The notes below the pieces were generated by a model, which saw nothing but the letters and a program-made list of their open reading frames with translations, made no database searches and was not told the DNA's origin. Shown piece by piece: positions 17,271 to 61,264 of a stretch of 64,000 nucleotides of DNA. The translations under genes were made by a program, and so were the position numbers. The DNA lies in contig NZ_BCSG01000003.1 of NCBI RefSeq assembly GCF_001570745.1, positions 1 to 64,000 on the forward strand, given 5' to 3'. Numbering within the stretch: position 1 is the first letter of the stretch; each line of letters starts with the position of its first letter. The stretch comes from Alicyclobacillus mali NBRC 102425 (GTDB taxonomy: Bacteria > Bacillota > Bacilli > Alicyclobacillales > Alicyclobacillaceae).

Positions 17271-17498
17271 AACAAGCTCCTGTGATGTTCGTGGGGCAGT
17301 TTTGGTTTTCATCCACGCAGTACCTACGGGAATCCGTGTCCGTCTGCGGATGCCATGCCTCGGCGTTGTGGACGGTTGAAACCGGCGGTAGGATACCCAC
17401 CTTGGAGATGGGGATGCAAAACCGATTGTCCCACGGCAGAACGGGGTTACATACCAAGCCGCTTGTCGACGCGCATATCGCTCGGCGGGCGGCTTTTT
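17271..17498 (+). ncRNA. ssrS: 6S RNA (SsrS) candidate
   Basis: A transcript of about 225 bases is bounded by a near-consensus promoter and an intrinsic terminator (AAGCCGC...GCGGCTTTTT, 17456-17498). The ends can fold into a long interrupted rod: GTGGG pairs with TGTCCCAC, and GGTTTT pairs with CAAAACC. Inner arms CCTAC/GTAGG and TCCGTC/GGACGG flank a central bubble. The 5' part GATGTTCGTGGGG and the 3' part GGGGTTACA resemble the conserved ends of bacterial 6S RNA, which binds and sequesters housekeeping RNA polymerase. No sensible protein is encoded here. Confidence 0.65.
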
Positions 17499-52735: not shown

Positions 52736-53776
52736 CTACCCTCTGTAGAGAAAGGGTGTATAGCCAAGATCCTGGGAGCGGATGGCCCGCGCGAGCATCC
52801 TGGCCTGGATGTCCAAGAGGCGACCGTACGGGACGGGTTGGCGCAACAGAGGGTGCTCGATTTCCCTCTCTCTTCTTCGATCCCACTCCGCGAATACGGT
52901 CTTTCGCCCCGCTTCGCCAAGCTCGATAGCTCCCCCAGGCAGCGTCTCGAAGTCCGCCTGCTGAAGCTGTCGGCGGTTGAACATTGAAAGCATGACGCGA
53001 TCGGCGAGTACCGGGCGCATTTCCTCCATGAGGTCGAGCGCTAGCGAGGGACGGCCCGGCCGGAGAGTGTGAAGGAACCCGACCTGCGGATCGAGTCCCA
53101 CGCCGAGCAGGGCGCTCTCCGCGTCGCGCATCAACATGGCGTAGAGGAAGGAGAGGACGGCGTTGACCGGATCGCGCGGAGGACGGCGATTGCGTCCATC
53201 GAACGCGAGATCCTGGCGCACACTGGGCGCGAGCAGATGGCGAAGTGCGGCGAAATAACGACGTGCGCTGACTCCCTCAATCCCGCGCACCTCGTCCGGA
53301 TCTGTTGCCGATCGAAGCTTCCGCAGTTCACGGGCGAGATCGTCGACGGCGGAACGGACGGCGTCGCGATCCGCCGGTTCCGCGACATCGCGCGACGCTT
53401 TGAGGAGAAGTTGGCGCTGATTGTGAACCTTGGCCGCGACGATGGCGCGCATGATGGCCAGCGATTTGTCCGGCGATCGACTGGCCTCGTGCTGGGCGGC
53501 GCGAAGAAGGACGTTGCCGGAAAGACGGCCTTCGATGCGATACAGGAAACGTCCGCCGCGTGTCATGCGGACGACGGATCGACCCTCGGCGGCGCAGCGC
53601 TCGAGCAGCGGACTTGTGAACGACACGCGGCCAATCCCGACAATCGACTCAATCATGTGAAAGGGAACACGCAACACCTTCTCGCCCTCAACCGTCACGA
53701 GCACCGTATCCTGTTGAATGCGCACCACAGCCCCGTCTCGTTGCACGAAGAGTGTCTTCAGCATCACAGGCGGCAT
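52736..53776 (-). CDS. cas1: CRISPR integrase Cas1 (type I-C-like)
   Basis: 346 residues. The catalytic metal ligands are E167 (RGIEGVSARRYF), H236 (VGFLHTLRPGRPSLALDLMEE) and E251 or a neighbour in LDLMEEMRPVLADR. The sequence style (FDGRNRRPPRDPVNAVLSFLY) is that of type I-C Cas1. In type I-G systems Cas1 is normally fused to Cas4; here it is separate. ATG 53776 overlaps the end of cas4 by 13 bases. It integrates new spacers at the leader end. Confidence 0.95.
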   Translation of the reverse strand: MPPVMLKTLFVQRDGAVVRIQQDTVLVTVEGEKVLRVPFHMIESIVGIGRVSFTSPLLERCAAEGRSVVRMTRGGRFLYRIEGRLSGNVLLRAAQHEASRSPDKSLAIMRAIVAAKVHNQRQLLLKASRDVAEPADRDAVRSAVDDLARELRKLRSATDPDEVRGIEGVSARRYFAALRHLLAPSVRQDLAFDGRNRRPPRDPVNAVLSFLYAMLMRDAESALLGVGLDPQVGFLHTLRPGRPSLALDLMEEMRPVLADRVMLSMFNRRQLQQADFETLPGGAIELGEAGRKTVFAEWDRRREREIEHPLLRQPVPYGRLLDIQARMLARAIRSQDLGYTPFLYRG

Positions 53777-54399
53777 GATGCCTCACCCCCGAGATCTTGA
53801 TCAATCATTTTCCAGAACGACCGATCGGAGCGCCGCATCGACCAACGTGGTAGACAGGCCGGTTCAAGTGAACAGCGCTCACAGCGGCGATCCGCGACGG
53901 GAGGTGGGAGTTCATGACTGTCGACCATCTCGCGAATCCGCGCGATCACGTCCAATGTGGTGCTTCGAAGCGCGTCATCGAGGATTACGCGCGATCGCCG
54001 GTGGCTGTGAATGTGGAAGATGGAAGCTTCTTCAATGCGGACTTCGAACATCTCCTCGAGGCATAGGGCTTGTGCACAAAGCTGAATTTCATGGGCGCGG
54101 CTTCGCCGCGTCTTGCCGCGCTTGAACTCAATGGGCCGCGGGATTTCGCCATCGAACTCCACGGCATCACAGCGGCCCACGAGCCCCAAGTGCTCCGACC
54201 ATACACGCATACCCGTGATGACCTTACGACCGCGAGCGGAGAATACATGATCCTCATCGACGCGCTGGTGGAGCAAACGGCCATTGACGGTCAGGTCGTT
54301 GTGCAAAAAAGTCTGCTCAACGTAAATGAGCGCGCACTGCCTCGGACAGTAAGCGTAGTGCTCAATAGAAGAGATAGGAATGAGCCACTCGCCGTCCAT
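53764..54399 (-). CDS. cas4: CRISPR-associated exonuclease Cas4
   Basis: 211 residues. Four cysteines for an iron-sulfur cluster are at C18, C173, C176 and C182; the RecB-type nuclease residues are H44, D78 (GRCDAVEF), E91 and K93 (PIEFKRG). Cas4 trims prespacers and sets their PAM and orientation. It is the first gene of a cas4-cas1-cas2 operon oriented away from the array, about 640 bases from the first repeat. Confidence 0.93.
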   Translation of the reverse strand: MDGEWLIPISSIEHYAYCPRQCALIYVEQTFLHNDLTVNGRLLHQRVDEDHVFSARGRKVITGMRVWSEHLGLVGRCDAVEFDGEIPRPIEFKRGKTRRSRAHEIQLCAQALCLEEMFEVRIEEASIFHIHSHRRSRVILDDALRSTTLDVIARIREMVDSHELPPPVADRRCERCSLEPACLPRWSMRRSDRSFWKMIDQDLGGEASCRL

Positions 54400-55037
54400 G
54401 TCGCATACCTCCTTTGGCGCCGGGGATGACGTGATAGCTTCCTGCGTTACGGGTGGAAATGATAGTTTCAGAATGGACCGAGAAGAGAAGGTCTATACGG
54501 GGGCAAGCGGGATCGGACACGGTCGGATGGCCGAAGGCTCATGTTGGTAACTACATCCATTGACCAACTCGCTCATGGTAAGCCAGGTGGAATGCGTTCG
54601 TGTCGGCAGCATCAACCTAGCGCGCATTCCTCGGCTGTTACCCAGAATGTCGTGAAGGCTGAGAACTGAGAACTGTCGCGATGGACTGACTGGTAAGCGT
54701 CACGCGACTTAAGCAGATGCTATATGGCTCGCCATATGGCATCGGGGAGCAGGGTGCGAATCCTGCCCCATCTAGTAGAACCACCCGTCGTCTCGCGTCG
54801 CCGCATGCTGCACAGAGAACGCGGGCAGCCTATCTTCACGGAGCAAATTCGCGAACCTGAATCGGTGGCAAAAAGCCCGGGGTTTCGCGTTTTACTCGAA
54901 AAGCGCGCCAAATCTGGACTTTTTCGATGTGAGGAGGTATGATAGGTGCACAGGATTGTGGTTCAAGGGCGACCTCGTGTGGAGGTTCGCGTTTTTGACC
55001 CGGGAGCCCGCGTCAGGACCGGGCTCAAAGGAGTGCC
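54400..55037. promoter_or_regulatory. CRISPR leader region
   Basis: This 638-base stretch separates cas4 from the first repeat and must hold the cas promoter and array leader. Two adjacent strong hairpins lie at 54716-54743 and 54744-54769, and a 41-residue reading frame at 54946-55071. No other gene is recognised. The leader side is set by the decayed repeat at the far end of the array. Confidence 0.65.
54716..54769. repeat. tandem hairpins in the CRISPR leader
   Basis: Hairpin 1: GATGC-T-ATATGGC pairs with GCCATAT-G-GCATC (13 pairs, including one T-G). Hairpin 2 follows directly: GGGG-A-GCAGG pairs with CCTGC-CCC around GTGCGAAT. Their role is unknown. The second looks slightly like a tRNA T-arm, but the loop is one base too long and no tRNA fits around it. 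Confidence 0.6.
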
Positions 55038-55071
55038 CTTGATCCGCCGAGATCGTCGGCGGCCCCATTGA
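54946..55071 (+). CDS. 41-residue reading frame entering the first CRISPR repeat
   Basis: GTG 54946 lies eight bases after a strong GAGGAGG site. The product starts MHRIVVQGRPRVEVRVFDPG and its last 11 residues and stop come from repeat 1. It might be a leader peptide, the stub of a lost gene, or chance. Because ribosomes would enter the array, it could affect transcription or processing of the precursor. Confidence 0.35.
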   Translation: MHRIVVQGRPRVEVRVFDPGARVRTGLKGVPLIRRDRRRPH

Positions 55072-56394
55072 AGCTGCCTGCCACAGCGCCCGTCACGCTG
55101 CGCCAGGTTGCTTGATCCGCCGAGATCGTCGGCGGCCCCATTGAAGCTGCTCCACGTATGTGGGATGGGCGCTCCGGCAAGCTTGATCCGCCGAGATCGT
55201 CGGCGGCCCCATTGAAGCCCAACCATGAGCAAGTCGCCAGACGGCCCCGTGGCCTTGATCCGCCGAGATCGTCGGCGGCCCCATTGAAGCCAAGAATACA
55301 CTTGCCACTTTCTTTTGCAGCGGCCTTGATCCGCCGAGATCGTCGGCGGCCCCATTGAAGCTATATAGATCGGAAGAGACACAGATCGAAGGCAGGCCTC
55401 TTGATCCGCCGAGATCGTCGGCGGCCCCATTGAAGCTCGATATGGGACGGACAAAAAGGACAGTGGGTGGCCAACTTGATCCGCCGAGATCGTCGGCGGC
55501 CCCATTGAAGCCTATCCGCCATCCCGACGCTCCTCCTCGTGAATGACCTTGATCCGCCGAGATCGTCGGCGGCCCCATTGAAGCATACTATGTATCCTCG
55601 GTCTATGCTCACTGTACGCTGTTCTTGATCCGCCGAGATCGTCGGCGGCCCCATTGAAGCTTATATGGGATCTAAGATACGAATGGGTTTAGAGTGGGCC
55701 TTGATCCGCCGAGATCGTCGGCGGCCCCATTGAAGCGTTATTACCAATATAGTCACATAGACGATCCTCATACTTGATCCGCCGAGATCGTCGGCGGCCC
55801 CATTGAAGCGGAATTGTATACGAAACTGTGATCAATTCTATTCAACTTGATCCGCCGAGATCGTCGGCGGCCCCATTGAAGCTCGAACAATGTCGCGAAA
55901 GACGGAAAGAAAAGACCCCCTTGATCCGCCGAGATCGTCGGCGGCCCCATTGAAGCTTAAACGCTTGGAGTTCAGCGATCTCGACAATCCACTTGATCCG
56001 CCGAGATCGTCGGCGGCCCCATTGAAGCTAAACGCTCCTAGAACCCTTTACGCGCGAAATACGCCCTTGATCCGCCGAGATCGTCGGCGGCCCCATTGAA
56101 GCGCTGTTGTGGTCCGTCGATGTCTGAAGCATATCACCTTGATCCGCCGAGATCGTCGGCGGCCCCATTGAAGCCCATAAATATCATAGTGATCGAAAAC
56201 CTTAAACTTAACTTGATCCGCCGAGATCGTCGGCGGCCCCATTGAAGCGACGCCTGCCTCCGGCGTGTCGTACACGACGACGCGATCTTGATCCGCCGAG
56301 ATCGTCGGCGGCCCCATTGAAGCATTATGGGACAGACGGAAAAAACGCCATTGGGCACTTGATCCGCCGAGATCGTCGGCGGCCTCATTCGTAG
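55038..56394 (+). CRISPR. CRISPR array, 19 repeats and 18 spacers
   Basis: The repeat is 37 bases. It begins CTTGATCCGCCGAGATCGTC and ends GGCGGCCCCATTGAAGC; copies 1-18 are identical. Inside, CCGCCGA pairs with TCGGCGG around GATCG. The final ATTGAAGC would be the 8-base crRNA handle. Repeats start at 55038, 55111, 55182, 55254, 55325, 55400, 55475, 55548, 55624, 55700, 55773, 55846, 55920, 55992, 56066, 56138, 56212, 56287 and 56358. Spacers are 34-39 bases. The last repeat is altered at its 3' end (GGCCTCATTCGTAGC), so the leader is on the left, next to cas4, and crRNA reads on the plus strand. The repeat differs from usual type I-C repeats; ATTGAA(A/G)C ends are general to type I. Confidence 0.98.
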
Positions 56395-56480
56395 CCTGCT
56401 CTCCTCTACATGTCTACCGCTGTCTCGCACCATGGAAAAAGCCGCTCCGCATCGGAACGGCCTTCCTGTGCAAACCCATC

Positions 56481-58208
<1,728 letters not shown>

Positions 58209-58230: not shown

Positions 58231-58387
58231 GCGGATGGGGCGCTCATGGCCGTAACCTTTGGGGAATTCGCAGGGGTTCTAGCGCTTGCCACAGCAGACC
58301 AGAAGCTCGGCTCCACAAATGGGGGAAACAGGCATGAAGAGCGGTCCTGCGCCGCAAGCACCGAATCAATCGCGTCTGCACGCAATC

Positions 58388-58477
58388 CAACATCCCTACG
58401 CTGGTATTACCCAGATCAGGTCCGACGGTCGGCAGCTCCAAAGCCGCCCTCTCAGCCCGGTGTCACCGAGCTCCCGT
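58388..58477 (-). ncRNA. TPP riboswitch
   Basis: On the minus strand the aptamer shows the conserved GGGCTGAGAGGG (P3 side), then CCTGATCTGGGTAATACCAG (pyrimidine and phosphate pockets), and CGTAGGGA closing P1 with the 5' GGGAGC. It senses thiamine pyrophosphate and represses thiC. A promoter (TTGCTC, 17 bases, TATGAT at 58525-58497) lies just upstream. Confidence 0.95.
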
Positions 58478-58496
58478 TTGTGCAGAATTCAGTTTC

Positions 58497-58658: not shown

Positions 58659-60128
58659 TTACGACGCTTTCGCCTCCACCTTGCGGTGATTGGCGCGTTC
58701 GCGCCGCGGAGAAATGAGAAGATACACAATCCCCGTCACAATGGGCGCCGCGTACGCCGAGACATCGGCTCCCCCGAACCACGCATTGGTGAGCGGGCTC
58801 TGCCACAGCGCACTATTGACGGACAGGAACGTCGCCACCGCACCGACCACGAACGCGAGAATTGCGCGCCAGTTAAATCCCCCGTTGTACCAGTACACGG
58901 ACGACGGTGACGTATCGACGAGATCGTCGGCAGCATAACGTCCGCGCACAACGAAGTGGTGAACGATGTAAATCGCCGCCCAGGGCCCCATGACCGTGAT
59001 CATGAGGTCGAGGAAGTTCTCAAAGAAGTCCACGAAGTTGTTGGAGAAAAACAAGGCATAAATACCGATGGCCGTGCAGATGGCGCCGTCCAACGCGACC
59101 GCAAAATGGCGTTTCAAACGGATTCCCATGGACAAAAAGCTCATCCCGGAGCTGTAAGCGTTCAGGTAGTTAGCGCAGACGTCGCCGAGCACCACCACAA
59201 TCAGGAACGGAATTGCAGCCCATTCTGGAATGGCCTTTGCAATCGCCATCACCGGATTTTCGGAGAAAGTTTTGGCGTTGATTATCGTGCCGAGCACCAC
59301 GCCAAGACCCATCATGATGAAGTTGGCAAGCCCTCCGCCGAGGAAGGTCGCCCATACCATTCGGCTCGTCTTAGTGTCCTTCGGCAGATAGCGGGAGTAA
59401 TCAGCGGCGAAATTCGCCCAACCGTAGAACGTGCTCGCCAGCCCGACGGAGAGCGCGAGCAAGAACGTCGGGAACACACCGTGCGCTGCAAGCGCGCTCG
59501 CGGGAGGATTGAAGTTCCATTTGACGTCGGGCAATACGGCGAAGAGCACGAGCACCGTGCACGCCGCAAGAACGATAGCAAGGACGCGCTGCATGACCAC
59601 GAGCGTCGCGTGCCCCAGGATAGGCACCAGATACGTGAGAAAGAGCGTGATGACGAGCGCAACGAGCGTCGGTCCAACGCCTGTCGATGGCAGGCCAACA
59701 TACTGCGCGAGGCTCAGCATCGCCCAGACCGTGAGCACCATGGTCACGCTCTCCCAGCCGACGGCAGTAAACCAGCTGAAAAACGCCGGAATTTTGCCGC
59801 CGTGCACCCCGAATGCCGCGCGAGAGATGGTGAGCGTCACCGTTCCCGCGCGCGGGCCCGTCGCCACGTACAGTCCGAGCGCCGCAAACGAGATAGAGCA
59901 CAGGAGAACAATCAACAGGCTCTCCCACACGTTGAGTCCGAAGACGCCGGTGAAGAGCTGCCCGGTCACGACACCGGTGAAGGTCAGGACTGCAGCAAAC
60001 CACACATAGAATAATTCTCGAGGCATTCCATGCCGGCGATGCTCCGCGATGATGCCGTTGCCCTCTGTCTCAAGCCGAAATGCCTCGTCGACCTGCGCCG
60101 TATGACGAAGCTCGTCCGCGGTGGCCAT
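58659..60128 (-). CDS. NCS1-family nucleobase transporter
   Basis: 489 residues and 12 segments, of the cytosine/purine/hydantoin permease type. It has RAGTVTLTISRAAFGVHGG near helix 3, SWFTAVGWESVTMVLT and FYGWANFAADYSRYLP, the substrate-site helices. NCS1 proteins import nucleobases or thiamine-related compounds. ATG 60128 follows GAGGGGGAG. A guanine-class riboswitch and terminator precede it, so the likely substrate is a purine such as guanine, hypoxanthine or xanthine. Location next to thiC alone would have suggested a hydroxymethylpyrimidine transporter. Confidence 0.88.
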   Translation of the reverse strand: MATADELRHTAQVDEAFRLETEGNGIIAEHRRHGMPRELFYVWFAAVLTFTGVVTGQLFTGVFGLNVWESLLIVLLCSISFAALGLYVATGPRAGTVTLTISRAAFGVHGGKIPAFFSWFTAVGWESVTMVLTVWAMLSLAQYVGLPSTGVGPTLVALVITLFLTYLVPILGHATLVVMQRVLAIVLAACTVLVLFAVLPDVKWNFNPPASALAAHGVFPTFLLALSVGLASTFYGWANFAADYSRYLPKDTKTSRMVWATFLGGGLANFIMMGLGVVLGTIINAKTFSENPVMAIAKAIPEWAAIPFLIVVVLGDVCANYLNAYSSGMSFLSMGIRLKRHFAVALDGAICTAIGIYALFFSNNFVDFFENFLDLMITVMGPWAAIYIVHHFVVRGRYAADDLVDTSPSSVYWYNGGFNWRAILAFVVGAVATFLSVNSALWQSPLTNAWFGGADVSAYAAPIVTGIVYLLISPRRERANHRKVEAKAS

Positions 60129-60161
60129 GGGCCGAACTCCCCCTCTATTGAATGATGAAAA

Positions 60162-60212
60162 CAAAAAAGACCTCGGGCGACCGAACCTGGAGGTTCGTCT
60201 CGCCAAGAGGCC
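60162..60212 (-). terminator. riboswitch-controlled terminator
   Basis: On the minus strand CCTCTTGGCGA..CGAACC pairs with GGTTCG..TCGCCCGAGG, followed by TCTTTTTTG. Its 5' arm (complement of 60207-60216) can instead pair with the aptamer P1 strand: ten bases, GAGGCCGTTG with CAACGGCCTC. That is the classic antiterminator. Confidence 0.85.
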
Positions 60213-60304
60213 GTTGACGGAGAGATCGGGCACGCGGCCACCCACGGCGATCGATGGACTCGATTCTCGCAGGGGCAGCCAGCGCGGCACCGCTCTATGA
60301 CAAC

Positions 60305-60378
60305 GGCCTCGTAGCGCAAGCGATTTTCGGTCGCTTGGTAGAAACTGCCGAGCCATATTCCCGGCATTATACGAGGCC
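60305..60378 (-). ncRNA. purine (guanine-class) riboswitch
   Basis: On the minus strand P1 is GGCCTCGTA/TACGAGGCC. Conserved elements are TATAATGCCGGGAATATGGC, GTTTCTACCAAGCGACC and the J3/1 strand GCTACG. The base equivalent to position 74 is C, the guanine/hypoxanthine/xanthine code. Ligand binding would stabilise P1, freeing the terminator, so it is an off-switch for the NCS1 transporter. Confidence 0.93.
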
Positions 60379-60395
60379 TTTTCGATCACACGCCT

Positions 60396-60424
60396 AGTGT
60401 ATCGAGCGCTGACACGCGAATCAA
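60396..60424 (-). promoter_or_regulatory. promoter of the riboswitch transcript
   Basis: TTGATT (60424-60419), 17 bases, TACACT (60401-60396) on the minus strand, about 18 bases before the aptamer. Confidence 0.6.
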
Positions 60425-60472: not shown

Positions 60473-61264
60473 TTACAAATTCGACACGAGGGTTTCGTTC
60501 GGGCGATCTTTCGACGTGATCGTGAGATACGCGACAAGCACGACGATGAAGAGTGTCGTGACGAGCGCAACGGCCCCTCGGCCAAACCCGAGCCCCCCGT
60601 ATGCTTTCTCGACGCCCAGCCAGTCCGCGAAGGAAGCGCCAAGCGGCCTCGTCATGACATAGGAGAACCAAAACGCGAAGATCTCATTCATACCCGCCCA
60701 GCGCTTCAGCAGGAAGGGCGCGCCGAACAGCACGATGAACAGAATGCCAGAAGCGAAGTACCCGAGGTGAAGCGTCGTCGCCGTCATATCCCCGCACGCC
60801 GTTCCCATGGCAAAAGTGGCAAGAACCGCAGCCCAGTAGAACAGCTCTCGGCGCCGCGTCACAATGCTGTGAATGTCGAGCGTGCGCTCCGTGCGATACC
60901 AGGTGATAAATACCGCGGCCAGGAAAATGGCAAACGCAGAGGTCGAAGCCCAGTAGGGCACCCCCAGGACGATGTGGATGGCGTCGGCCACCATGGTTCC
61001 AAACACCGCCACCATCGTCACGAAGGTCCAATAGATGTAGGGAACATATCGCTTGGCGCGGTATTGAAACCAAAAGGCAACCCCAAACGCGACGGCGCCG
61101 AGCAGCACCGCCAAGTACTTGTTGAGGTGCAGGACCAAGAAGTCCGAAGTCGCTTCTCCCATCGCCGTCGTGAGGAGCTTTACAATCCAGAACCACACGG
61201 TGATCTCGGGCACCTTGCTGACCATCGGGCGTATGCGCCGCGTACTCACGCGCGCGGTGGACAT
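60473..61264 (-). CDS. DUF347-type membrane protein
   Basis: 263 residues with about eight hydrophobic segments in repeated pairs. Blocks such as WFWIVKLLTTAMGEATSDFLV and GTACGDMTATTLHLGYFASGI match the DUF347 repeat (COG4705). These proteins are of unknown function; some have been linked to manganese or other export, which is unproven. ATG 61264 follows GGAGGG. It lies downstream of the Dam-type methylase on the same strand. Confidence 0.8.
   Translation of the reverse strand: MSTARVSTRRIRPMVSKVPEITVWFWIVKLLTTAMGEATSDFLVLHLNKYLAVLLGAVAFGVAFWFQYRAKRYVPYIYWTFVTMVAVFGTMVADAIHIVLGVPYWASTSAFAIFLAAVFITWYRTERTLDIHSIVTRRRELFYWAAVLATFAMGTACGDMTATTLHLGYFASGILFIVLFGAPFLLKRWAGMNEIFAFWFSYVMTRPLGASFADWLGVEKAYGGLGFGRGAVALVTTLFIVVLVAYLTITSKDRPNETLVSNL

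Follow-up and report, generated by a model that had tools for sequence, protein, structure and literature searches.

A guanine-class riboswitch directly upstream of an NCS1 transporter gene in Alicyclobacillus mali predicts a purine substrate for the transporter

In a 64,000-nucleotide stretch of the Alicyclobacillus mali NBRC 102425 genome (contig NZ_BCSG01000003.1, positions 1 to 64,000; here called the window), a full-length purine riboswitch of the guanine class lies directly upstream of a gene for an NCS1-family transporter (P0001; Table 1). The RNA is very probably an OFF switch for guanine, and it would act at the level of transcription on a monocistronic NCS1 gene. Under guanine limitation, CAACGGCCUC would capture the 3' strand of P1, the terminator would thereby lose its foot, and the transporter would be made; binding of guanine (or hypoxanthine) would close P1, so that the terminator would form and transcription would stop before the gene. 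The predicted substrate of P0001 is probably a purine base (most likely guanine and hypoxanthine), and the protein would do, in its own lineage, the job of an AZG/PbuG-type NCS2 permease. The combination of an OFF switch with a purine-importing NCS1 protein that serves in place of an AZG/PbuG-type permease is likely to be the best explanation as a whole. We infer the ligand, the direction of control, and the substrate from the computational evidence presented below.

Table 1. Features of the riboswitch-transporter locus located by computation or by eye (positions in the window)
Feature	Position	Strand	Basis
Purine riboswitch aptamer RF00167, full-length	60292..60394	-	cmscan, 74.6 bits (cut-off, 37)
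P1 5' strand, GGCCUCGUA	60370..60378	-	Fold and covariation
P1 3' strand, UACGAGGCC	60305..60313	-	Fold and covariation
J3-1, CGC (3 nt instead of the usual two; C74 corresponds to the C at 60314)	60314..60316	-	Aptamer alignment
Antiterminator 5' strand, GAGGCCGUUG, overlapping the P1 3' strand	60301..60310	-	Leader folding
Antiterminator 3' strand, CAACGGCCUC, overlapping the 5' foot of the terminator	60207..60216	-	Leader folding
Intrinsic terminator (hairpin at 60210-60171, followed by UC and a run of six U at 60168-60163)	60163..60210	-	Leader folding; partly by consensus scan
Shine-Dalgarno-like sequence, AGGGGGAG, 8 nt before the ATG	60137..60144	-	Read by eye
Possible weak promoter, TTGATT-17 nt-TACACT	60396..60424	-	By eye only
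NCS1-family transporter P0001, 489 aa (ATG at 60128; stop included)	58659..60128	-	ORF, Pfam, fold

A cmscan search of the whole window matched the RNA to the purine riboswitch model RF00167 over its entire length (positions 1 to 102 of 102; E = 2.1e-11), and this was the strongest of the three Rfam matches that reached their gathering cut-offs in the window. A 6S RNA was also detected by cmscan (17274 to 17451 on the plus strand; 66.3 bits). We aligned 25 aptamers, comprising 23 located directly 5' of the transporter gene and its orthologs, one from the guaA-NCS1 operon of a relative (genome G020), and one from the guaA gene of the genome of the window. The equivalents of U22, U47, U51, and C74 (xpt numbering) were invariant in all 25 rows. 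U22, U51, and C74 are named as riboswitch positions in the available text of PMC9295807. A C at position 74, as expected for guanine, rather than the U74 of adenine aptamers, together with the retained U22 and U51, places every row in the guanine class. The stems of the three-way junction covaried: changes on both sides were found for 13 of the 23 pairs, a number that none of 500 shuffles reached, and 95.5% of the cells were paired, compared with 26 to 42% when the structure was slid along the alignment as a control. By stem, both sides were changed for 2/9 pairs in P1, 5/7 in P2, and 6/7 in P3; P1 adds little covariation, with frequent disruption of its outermost pairs. Chance is ruled out by the covariance model score, the conservation of the riboswitch in 23 of 24 orthologs, and the covariation. 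The preliminary description had recognized a complete guanine-class aptamer, and the full-model RF00167 match and the four invariant positions bear this out. Judged by its sequence, this is a typical RNA of the known guanine riboswitch class in an unusual place, with guanine as the predicted ligand.

An expression platform coupled to P1 was found between the aptamer and the gene. The two antiterminator strands are perfect complements over 10 nt, the 5' strand extending from within the P1 3' strand into the bases that follow, and the terminator is a CCUC...GAGG hairpin with six U residues behind it. These overlapping strands and this hairpin correspond to the antiterminator and terminator named in the preliminary description. 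When the leader was folded alone, its minimum-energy structure (-125.5 kcal/mol) had P1 closed and the terminator formed, and forcing the antiterminator (-125.4 kcal/mol) cost 0.1 kcal/mol; two folds of nearly equal energy are what a ligand-driven OFF switch needs. Since the upper terminator stem still forms in the forced fold, and only the four-pair foot is lost, the OFF mechanism would rest on the loss of this foot. In 14 of the 23 leaders, no more than 5% of 300 mononucleotide shuffles gave a match for the duplex between the antiterminator and the P1 3' strand; the six closest leaders are near copies rather than independent cases. The expression platform was unconvincing in 9 of the 23, partly as a result of failed automatic terminator picks (doubtful in L043, L044, L052, and L055; none obtained for L050). 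A consensus terminator scan caught only an inner part of the hairpin region (60185 to 60172), 0.4 such sites being expected by chance. A promoter scan that required at least 9 of 12 matches reported none at the position of the possible promoter read by eye; the upstream limit of the preliminary description (60424) coincides with the start of the weak -35-like TTGATT of this reading.

P0001 belongs to the NCS1 family on the basis of its match to PF02133 (155.5 bits; cut-off, 23.5). Its scores against the NCBIfam models TIGR00800 (ncs1; 92.2 bits) and TIGR02358 (cytX; 69.3 bits) were below the curated cut-offs (353.1 and 309.85 bits, respectively). Because a sequence search of the PDB returned no match for P0001 (E up to 0.001) or for a 24-row profile (E up to 0.01), we turned to a comparison of folds. 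An AlphaFold2 model built from P0001 and 19 relatives (mean pLDDT, 77; pTM, 0.79) had Mhp1 or CodB as all five of its best Foldseek PDB matches (E = 4e-12 and 6e-11, respectively; 18 to 20% identity). The earlier reading of the gene product as a cytosine/hydantoin-permease-type protein thus agrees with both the Pfam match and the predicted fold. By motif reading, Trp125 and Thr129 of P0001 were equated with Trp223 and Glu227 of the plant NCS1 protein PLUTO; in the available text of PMC3951388, PLUTO Trp223 corresponds to Mhp1 Trp117, and Mhp1 has a Gln at the place of Glu227. The purine determinant Glu227 of PLUTO is not conserved in P0001 according to this reading, and the P0001 clade would therefore need another way to bind guanine. 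The substrate-pocket residues, compared in this way by motif, give no verdict on the substrate.

Orthologs of P0001 (63 to 100% identity) were found in 24 of 121 genomes, including that of the window, all within the same family; the next matches had about 35% identity or less. Likewise, in a class-wide sample of 299 genomes that included part of the family, the matches with at least 857 bits were all in the family, and the next scored 286 bits. In named genomes, P0001-type proteins were found in Alicyclobacillus species and their relatives. Among the 41 family genomes, a purine riboswitch stood directly upstream of the NCS1 gene for 23 of the 24 orthologs, and the 24th (in G020) had the order riboswitch-guaA-NCS1, with the NCS1 gene on the same strand as guaA. 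A scan of named genomes found the riboswitch at 15 of 19 loci, and these 15 were already among the 24 ortholog records. Counted over distinct records, the link held in 24 of 28; for the most distant relatives (L103, L105, L106, and L107; 50 to 61% identity), a scan of 3 kb of upstream sequence found no purine riboswitch of Rfam. One of them (L107; 50% identity) adjoins molybdenum-hydroxylase subunits resembling XdhA and XdhC, all scoring below curated cut-offs, with the small subunit scoring slightly better as glyceraldehyde dehydrogenase gamma. Another (L106; 61% identity) lies behind RihC nucleoside hydrolase-like and ribokinase-like frames, also below curated cut-offs; between this cluster and the NCS1 gene, a hairpin resembling a terminator was read by eye. 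The XdhA-like and ribokinase-like frames are cut by the ends of their loci. The two neighborhoods lend weak backing to the purine-importer reading. Six distant NCS1 loci (L057 to L062) had no riboswitch. Given the conserved place of the riboswitch in the family, this NCS1 clade is best read as one of purine-base importers.

A search for a conserved gene neighborhood in the 24 loci found none beyond close relatives (the NCS1 frame of L080, missed by the neighborhood count, was placed by a protein search of the genomes). In the window, a gene for a DUF347 repeat protein (60473 to 61264, minus strand) lies directly upstream of the riboswitch; the frame at this position clusters across eight close relatives, one of which was confirmed as DUF347. 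Elsewhere in the window, a CRISPR-like array (55032 to 56400) contains 19 repeat copies with a spacing of 71 to 76 nt, and a Cas4-like gene (53764 to 54399, minus strand) lies about 0.6 kb from it.

The 41 family genomes carried 82 purine riboswitches, 24 of them linked with the NCS1 gene. The 58 others stood before guaA (34), xpt (10), pur genes (9), a Bmp lipoprotein gene (2), a contig end (1), or an unassigned frame followed by pbuX (2; L122 and L129). The names guaA, xpt, pbuX, purE, purK, purB, purC, and purL were verified on one representative each, and guaA in G022 and in G023, which the frame filter had missed, was placed separately. At L129 (G038:C33:45795-47050), the pbuX-like gene behind the riboswitch is split over two frames. 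The two Bmp/PnrA-type lipoprotein genes that follow a purine riboswitch (L162 in G004 and L163 in G013) probably encode a component of a nucleoside ABC transporter.

Of the 41 genomes, 23 encode an AZG-like NCS2 permease, so named from its PF00860 match and from its solved relatives, the adenine/guanine permeases AZG1 and AZG2. It matched the NCBIfam pbuX model weakly (28 bits), and its plasmid relatives were called 'NCS2 family permease' where they were named, among the matches listed (15 of 430). We take PbuG to be its counterpart in B. subtilis. The AZG-like gene follows guaA in all 23 genomes (22 on riboswitch stretches, and G034 by coordinates). The distributions of the two permeases were reciprocal: the NCS1 ortholog occurred by itself in 18 genomes, the AZG-like permease by itself in 17, both in 6, and neither in none. 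The raw Fisher test of this reciprocity (p = 6.9e-7) overstates the case, since a guaA tree shows few independent events, and it was set aside as main evidence. In this tree of 36 genomes, the NCS1 trait changes six times and the AZG-like trait five times. Among four independent pairs on well-supported branches, the AZG-like trait went in the direction opposite to the NCS1 trait in one to two, in the same direction in none, and otherwise did not differ; with relatedness considered in this way, the reciprocity falls short of significance (median p of 0.5 in a sign test). The tree left out G034 (guaA split), G039 (no full guaA), and G017, G032, and G038 (no anchor motif); it is unrooted and thus compatible with either permease having come first.

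In the genome of the window, P0001 is the sole NCS1 match at E of 0.001 or less. The single NCS2 protein resembles uracil permease (354 bits, a score below the cut-off of 477 bits), no AZG-like permease was found, and a PbuX query returned nothing closer than this NCS2 protein at 34% identity. HGPRT scored over its cut-off (212 bits), and no XPRT did (best, 50 bits; cut-off, 164 bits); on this gene content, the substrate would fit guanine and hypoxanthine better than xanthine. That the riboswitch predicts a purine substrate was already proposed in the preliminary description. This prediction, which it still is, gains support from the guaA-NCS1 operon of G020, from the AZG-like reciprocity, and from the finding of no other recognized NCS1 or NCS2 purine-base permease in the genome. 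With somewhat less assurance than for the substrate itself, we propose that a bacterial NCS1 clade became a dedicated guanine/hypoxanthine importer in the riboswitch slot (once behind guaA) of a PbuG/AZG-type permease.

If guanine were sensed but the NCS1 protein carried a non-purine compound (e.g., cytosine, uracil, or allantoin), guanine control would serve to balance the purine and pyrimidine pools. Plasmid relatives of P0001 with about 30% identity do bear the name 'cytosine permease' or 'allantoin permease' in their annotation, the nearest structures include CodB, and the bacterial NCS1 proteins named as characterized in the available text of PMC11633122 carry such substrates. We nevertheless regard this explanation as unlikely, because every one of the 41 genomes has the NCS1 ortholog or the AZG-like permease, the NCS1 gene stands behind guaA in G020, and the genome of the window already encodes a uracil-permease-like NCS2 protein.

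A second alternative starts from the other neighbor of the transporter gene. Directly downstream of it lies thiC (56481 to 58202, minus strand), preceded by its own TPP riboswitch (58376 to 58487, minus strand; 63.9 bits). The ThiC reaction uses an intermediate of the purine pathway. P0001 could on these grounds be a CytX-like importer of hydroxymethylpyrimidine or another thiamine precursor, and its weak cytX match points the same way. However, thiC has a switch of its own, and a TPP riboswitch occurs within flanks of about 1.5 kb only at the 6 closest (L033 to L038) of the 24 loci (L033 to L056), while the riboswitch 5' of NCS1 or guaA-NCS1 is of the purine class in 24/24. The general ncs1 model also outscores cytX (92 versus 69 bits), and we consider a thiamine-precursor importer highly improbable.

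The aptamer of the window departs from the class consensus in the length of J3-1, which is three nucleotides instead of two. This one-nucleotide insertion was found in 6 of the 25 aptamers, those of the window and of the five relatives nearest to it, which have CGC; the other 19 rows have two nucleotides (AC, CC, or GC), and the guaA aptamer of the same genome is among those that have no insertion. Insertions in J3-1 and J2-3 go with a change to xanthine, and xanthine-II RNAs with a J3-1 insertion also carry U51G and J2-3 insertions, according to the available text of PMC9295807. An altered ligand specificity in this clade (e.g., for xanthine or a nucleoside) is very doubtful, given that U22, U51, and C74 are retained, that J2-3 has no insertion, that orthologs with a two-nucleotide J3-1 precede the same gene, and that the genome has no XPRT over the cut-off. 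Since U51G and the J2-3 insertions of xanthine-II are absent here, guanine is the ligand that we predict to have been retained.

For the comparison with published transporters, we take PA4719, PA0166, PA1519, PA2938, and PA0352 to be NCS2 proteins and the carriers of allantoin, cytosine, and dihydrouracil to be NCS1 proteins. In the available text of PMC11633122, guanine and hypoxanthine go with the former five proteins, and the substrates named for characterized bacterial NCS1 transporters are allantoin, cytosine, and dihydrouracil; hydantoins are given for Mhp1 in that of PMC3951388. The tree of PMC11633122 is said there to hold all characterized bacterial NCS1 transporters, and the same text stresses how few have been characterized. 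No guanine or hypoxanthine importer is among the characterized bacterial NCS1 proteins named in the available parts of these two papers. In the open-access literature, as far as its available text extends, we found no NCS1 gene described as preceded by a purine riboswitch. The category 'Purine & precursor transporters' appears in PMC3766115, and the words NCS1, cytX, and Alicyclobacillus are absent from its main text.

The substrates of bacterial NCS1 proteins are hardly readable from sequence. A riboswitch names a physiological ligand pool and therefore provides a testable substrate prediction for the whole transporter clade. If the prediction is true, P0001 would be the first guanine/hypoxanthine importer among the bacterial NCS1 proteins named in the available parts of those papers, with a pocket that lacks the purine determinant of PLUTO, and at this locus one transporter family would probably be doing the work of another under unchanged RNA control. 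A wrong prediction would mean that non-purine transporters, too, can come under a guanine riboswitch, and a common route of gene annotation would be weakened.

Among RNAs, the xanthine-II and guanine-II variants (available text of PMC9295807) share joining-region insertions with the aptamer of the window, which differs from them in having a single extra nucleotide in J3-1 only, with U51 kept and no insertion in J2-3. Among proteins, PLUTO (plant) and FcyB (fungal) are NCS1 members able to carry guanine and adenine, PLUTO with a Km of 6.3 uM for guanine (available text of PMC3951388); PLUTO Glu227, which is important for guanine, is absent at the equivalent motif position of P0001. Mhp1 (hydantoin) and CodB (cytosine), also of the NCS1 family, have the folds nearest to that of P0001, a PF02133 protein, and differ in their low sequence identity, in their non-purine substrates, and in the Gln/Glu place that Thr129 occupies in P0001. 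The PbuG/AZG-type NCS2 permeases occupy the same regulatory slot (i.e., under a purine riboswitch and, in relatives, behind guaA) and presumably do the same job as P0001, but they belong to another protein family (PF00860 versus PF02133).

Another close known system is the guanine riboswitch (guanine-I), which controls xpt, purine permeases, and guaA in B. subtilis. For C. difficile, the available text of PMC11477304 describes how guanine riboswitches switch off xpt, permeases, and guaA. The locus resembles guanine-I in its aptamer, its C74, a predicted OFF-type attenuation, a P1 strand common to the aptamer and the antiterminator, and the context of purine salvage. It differs in the extra J3-1 nucleotide of its own clade and in its target, which is an NCS1 gene instead of the usual NCS2 permease gene.
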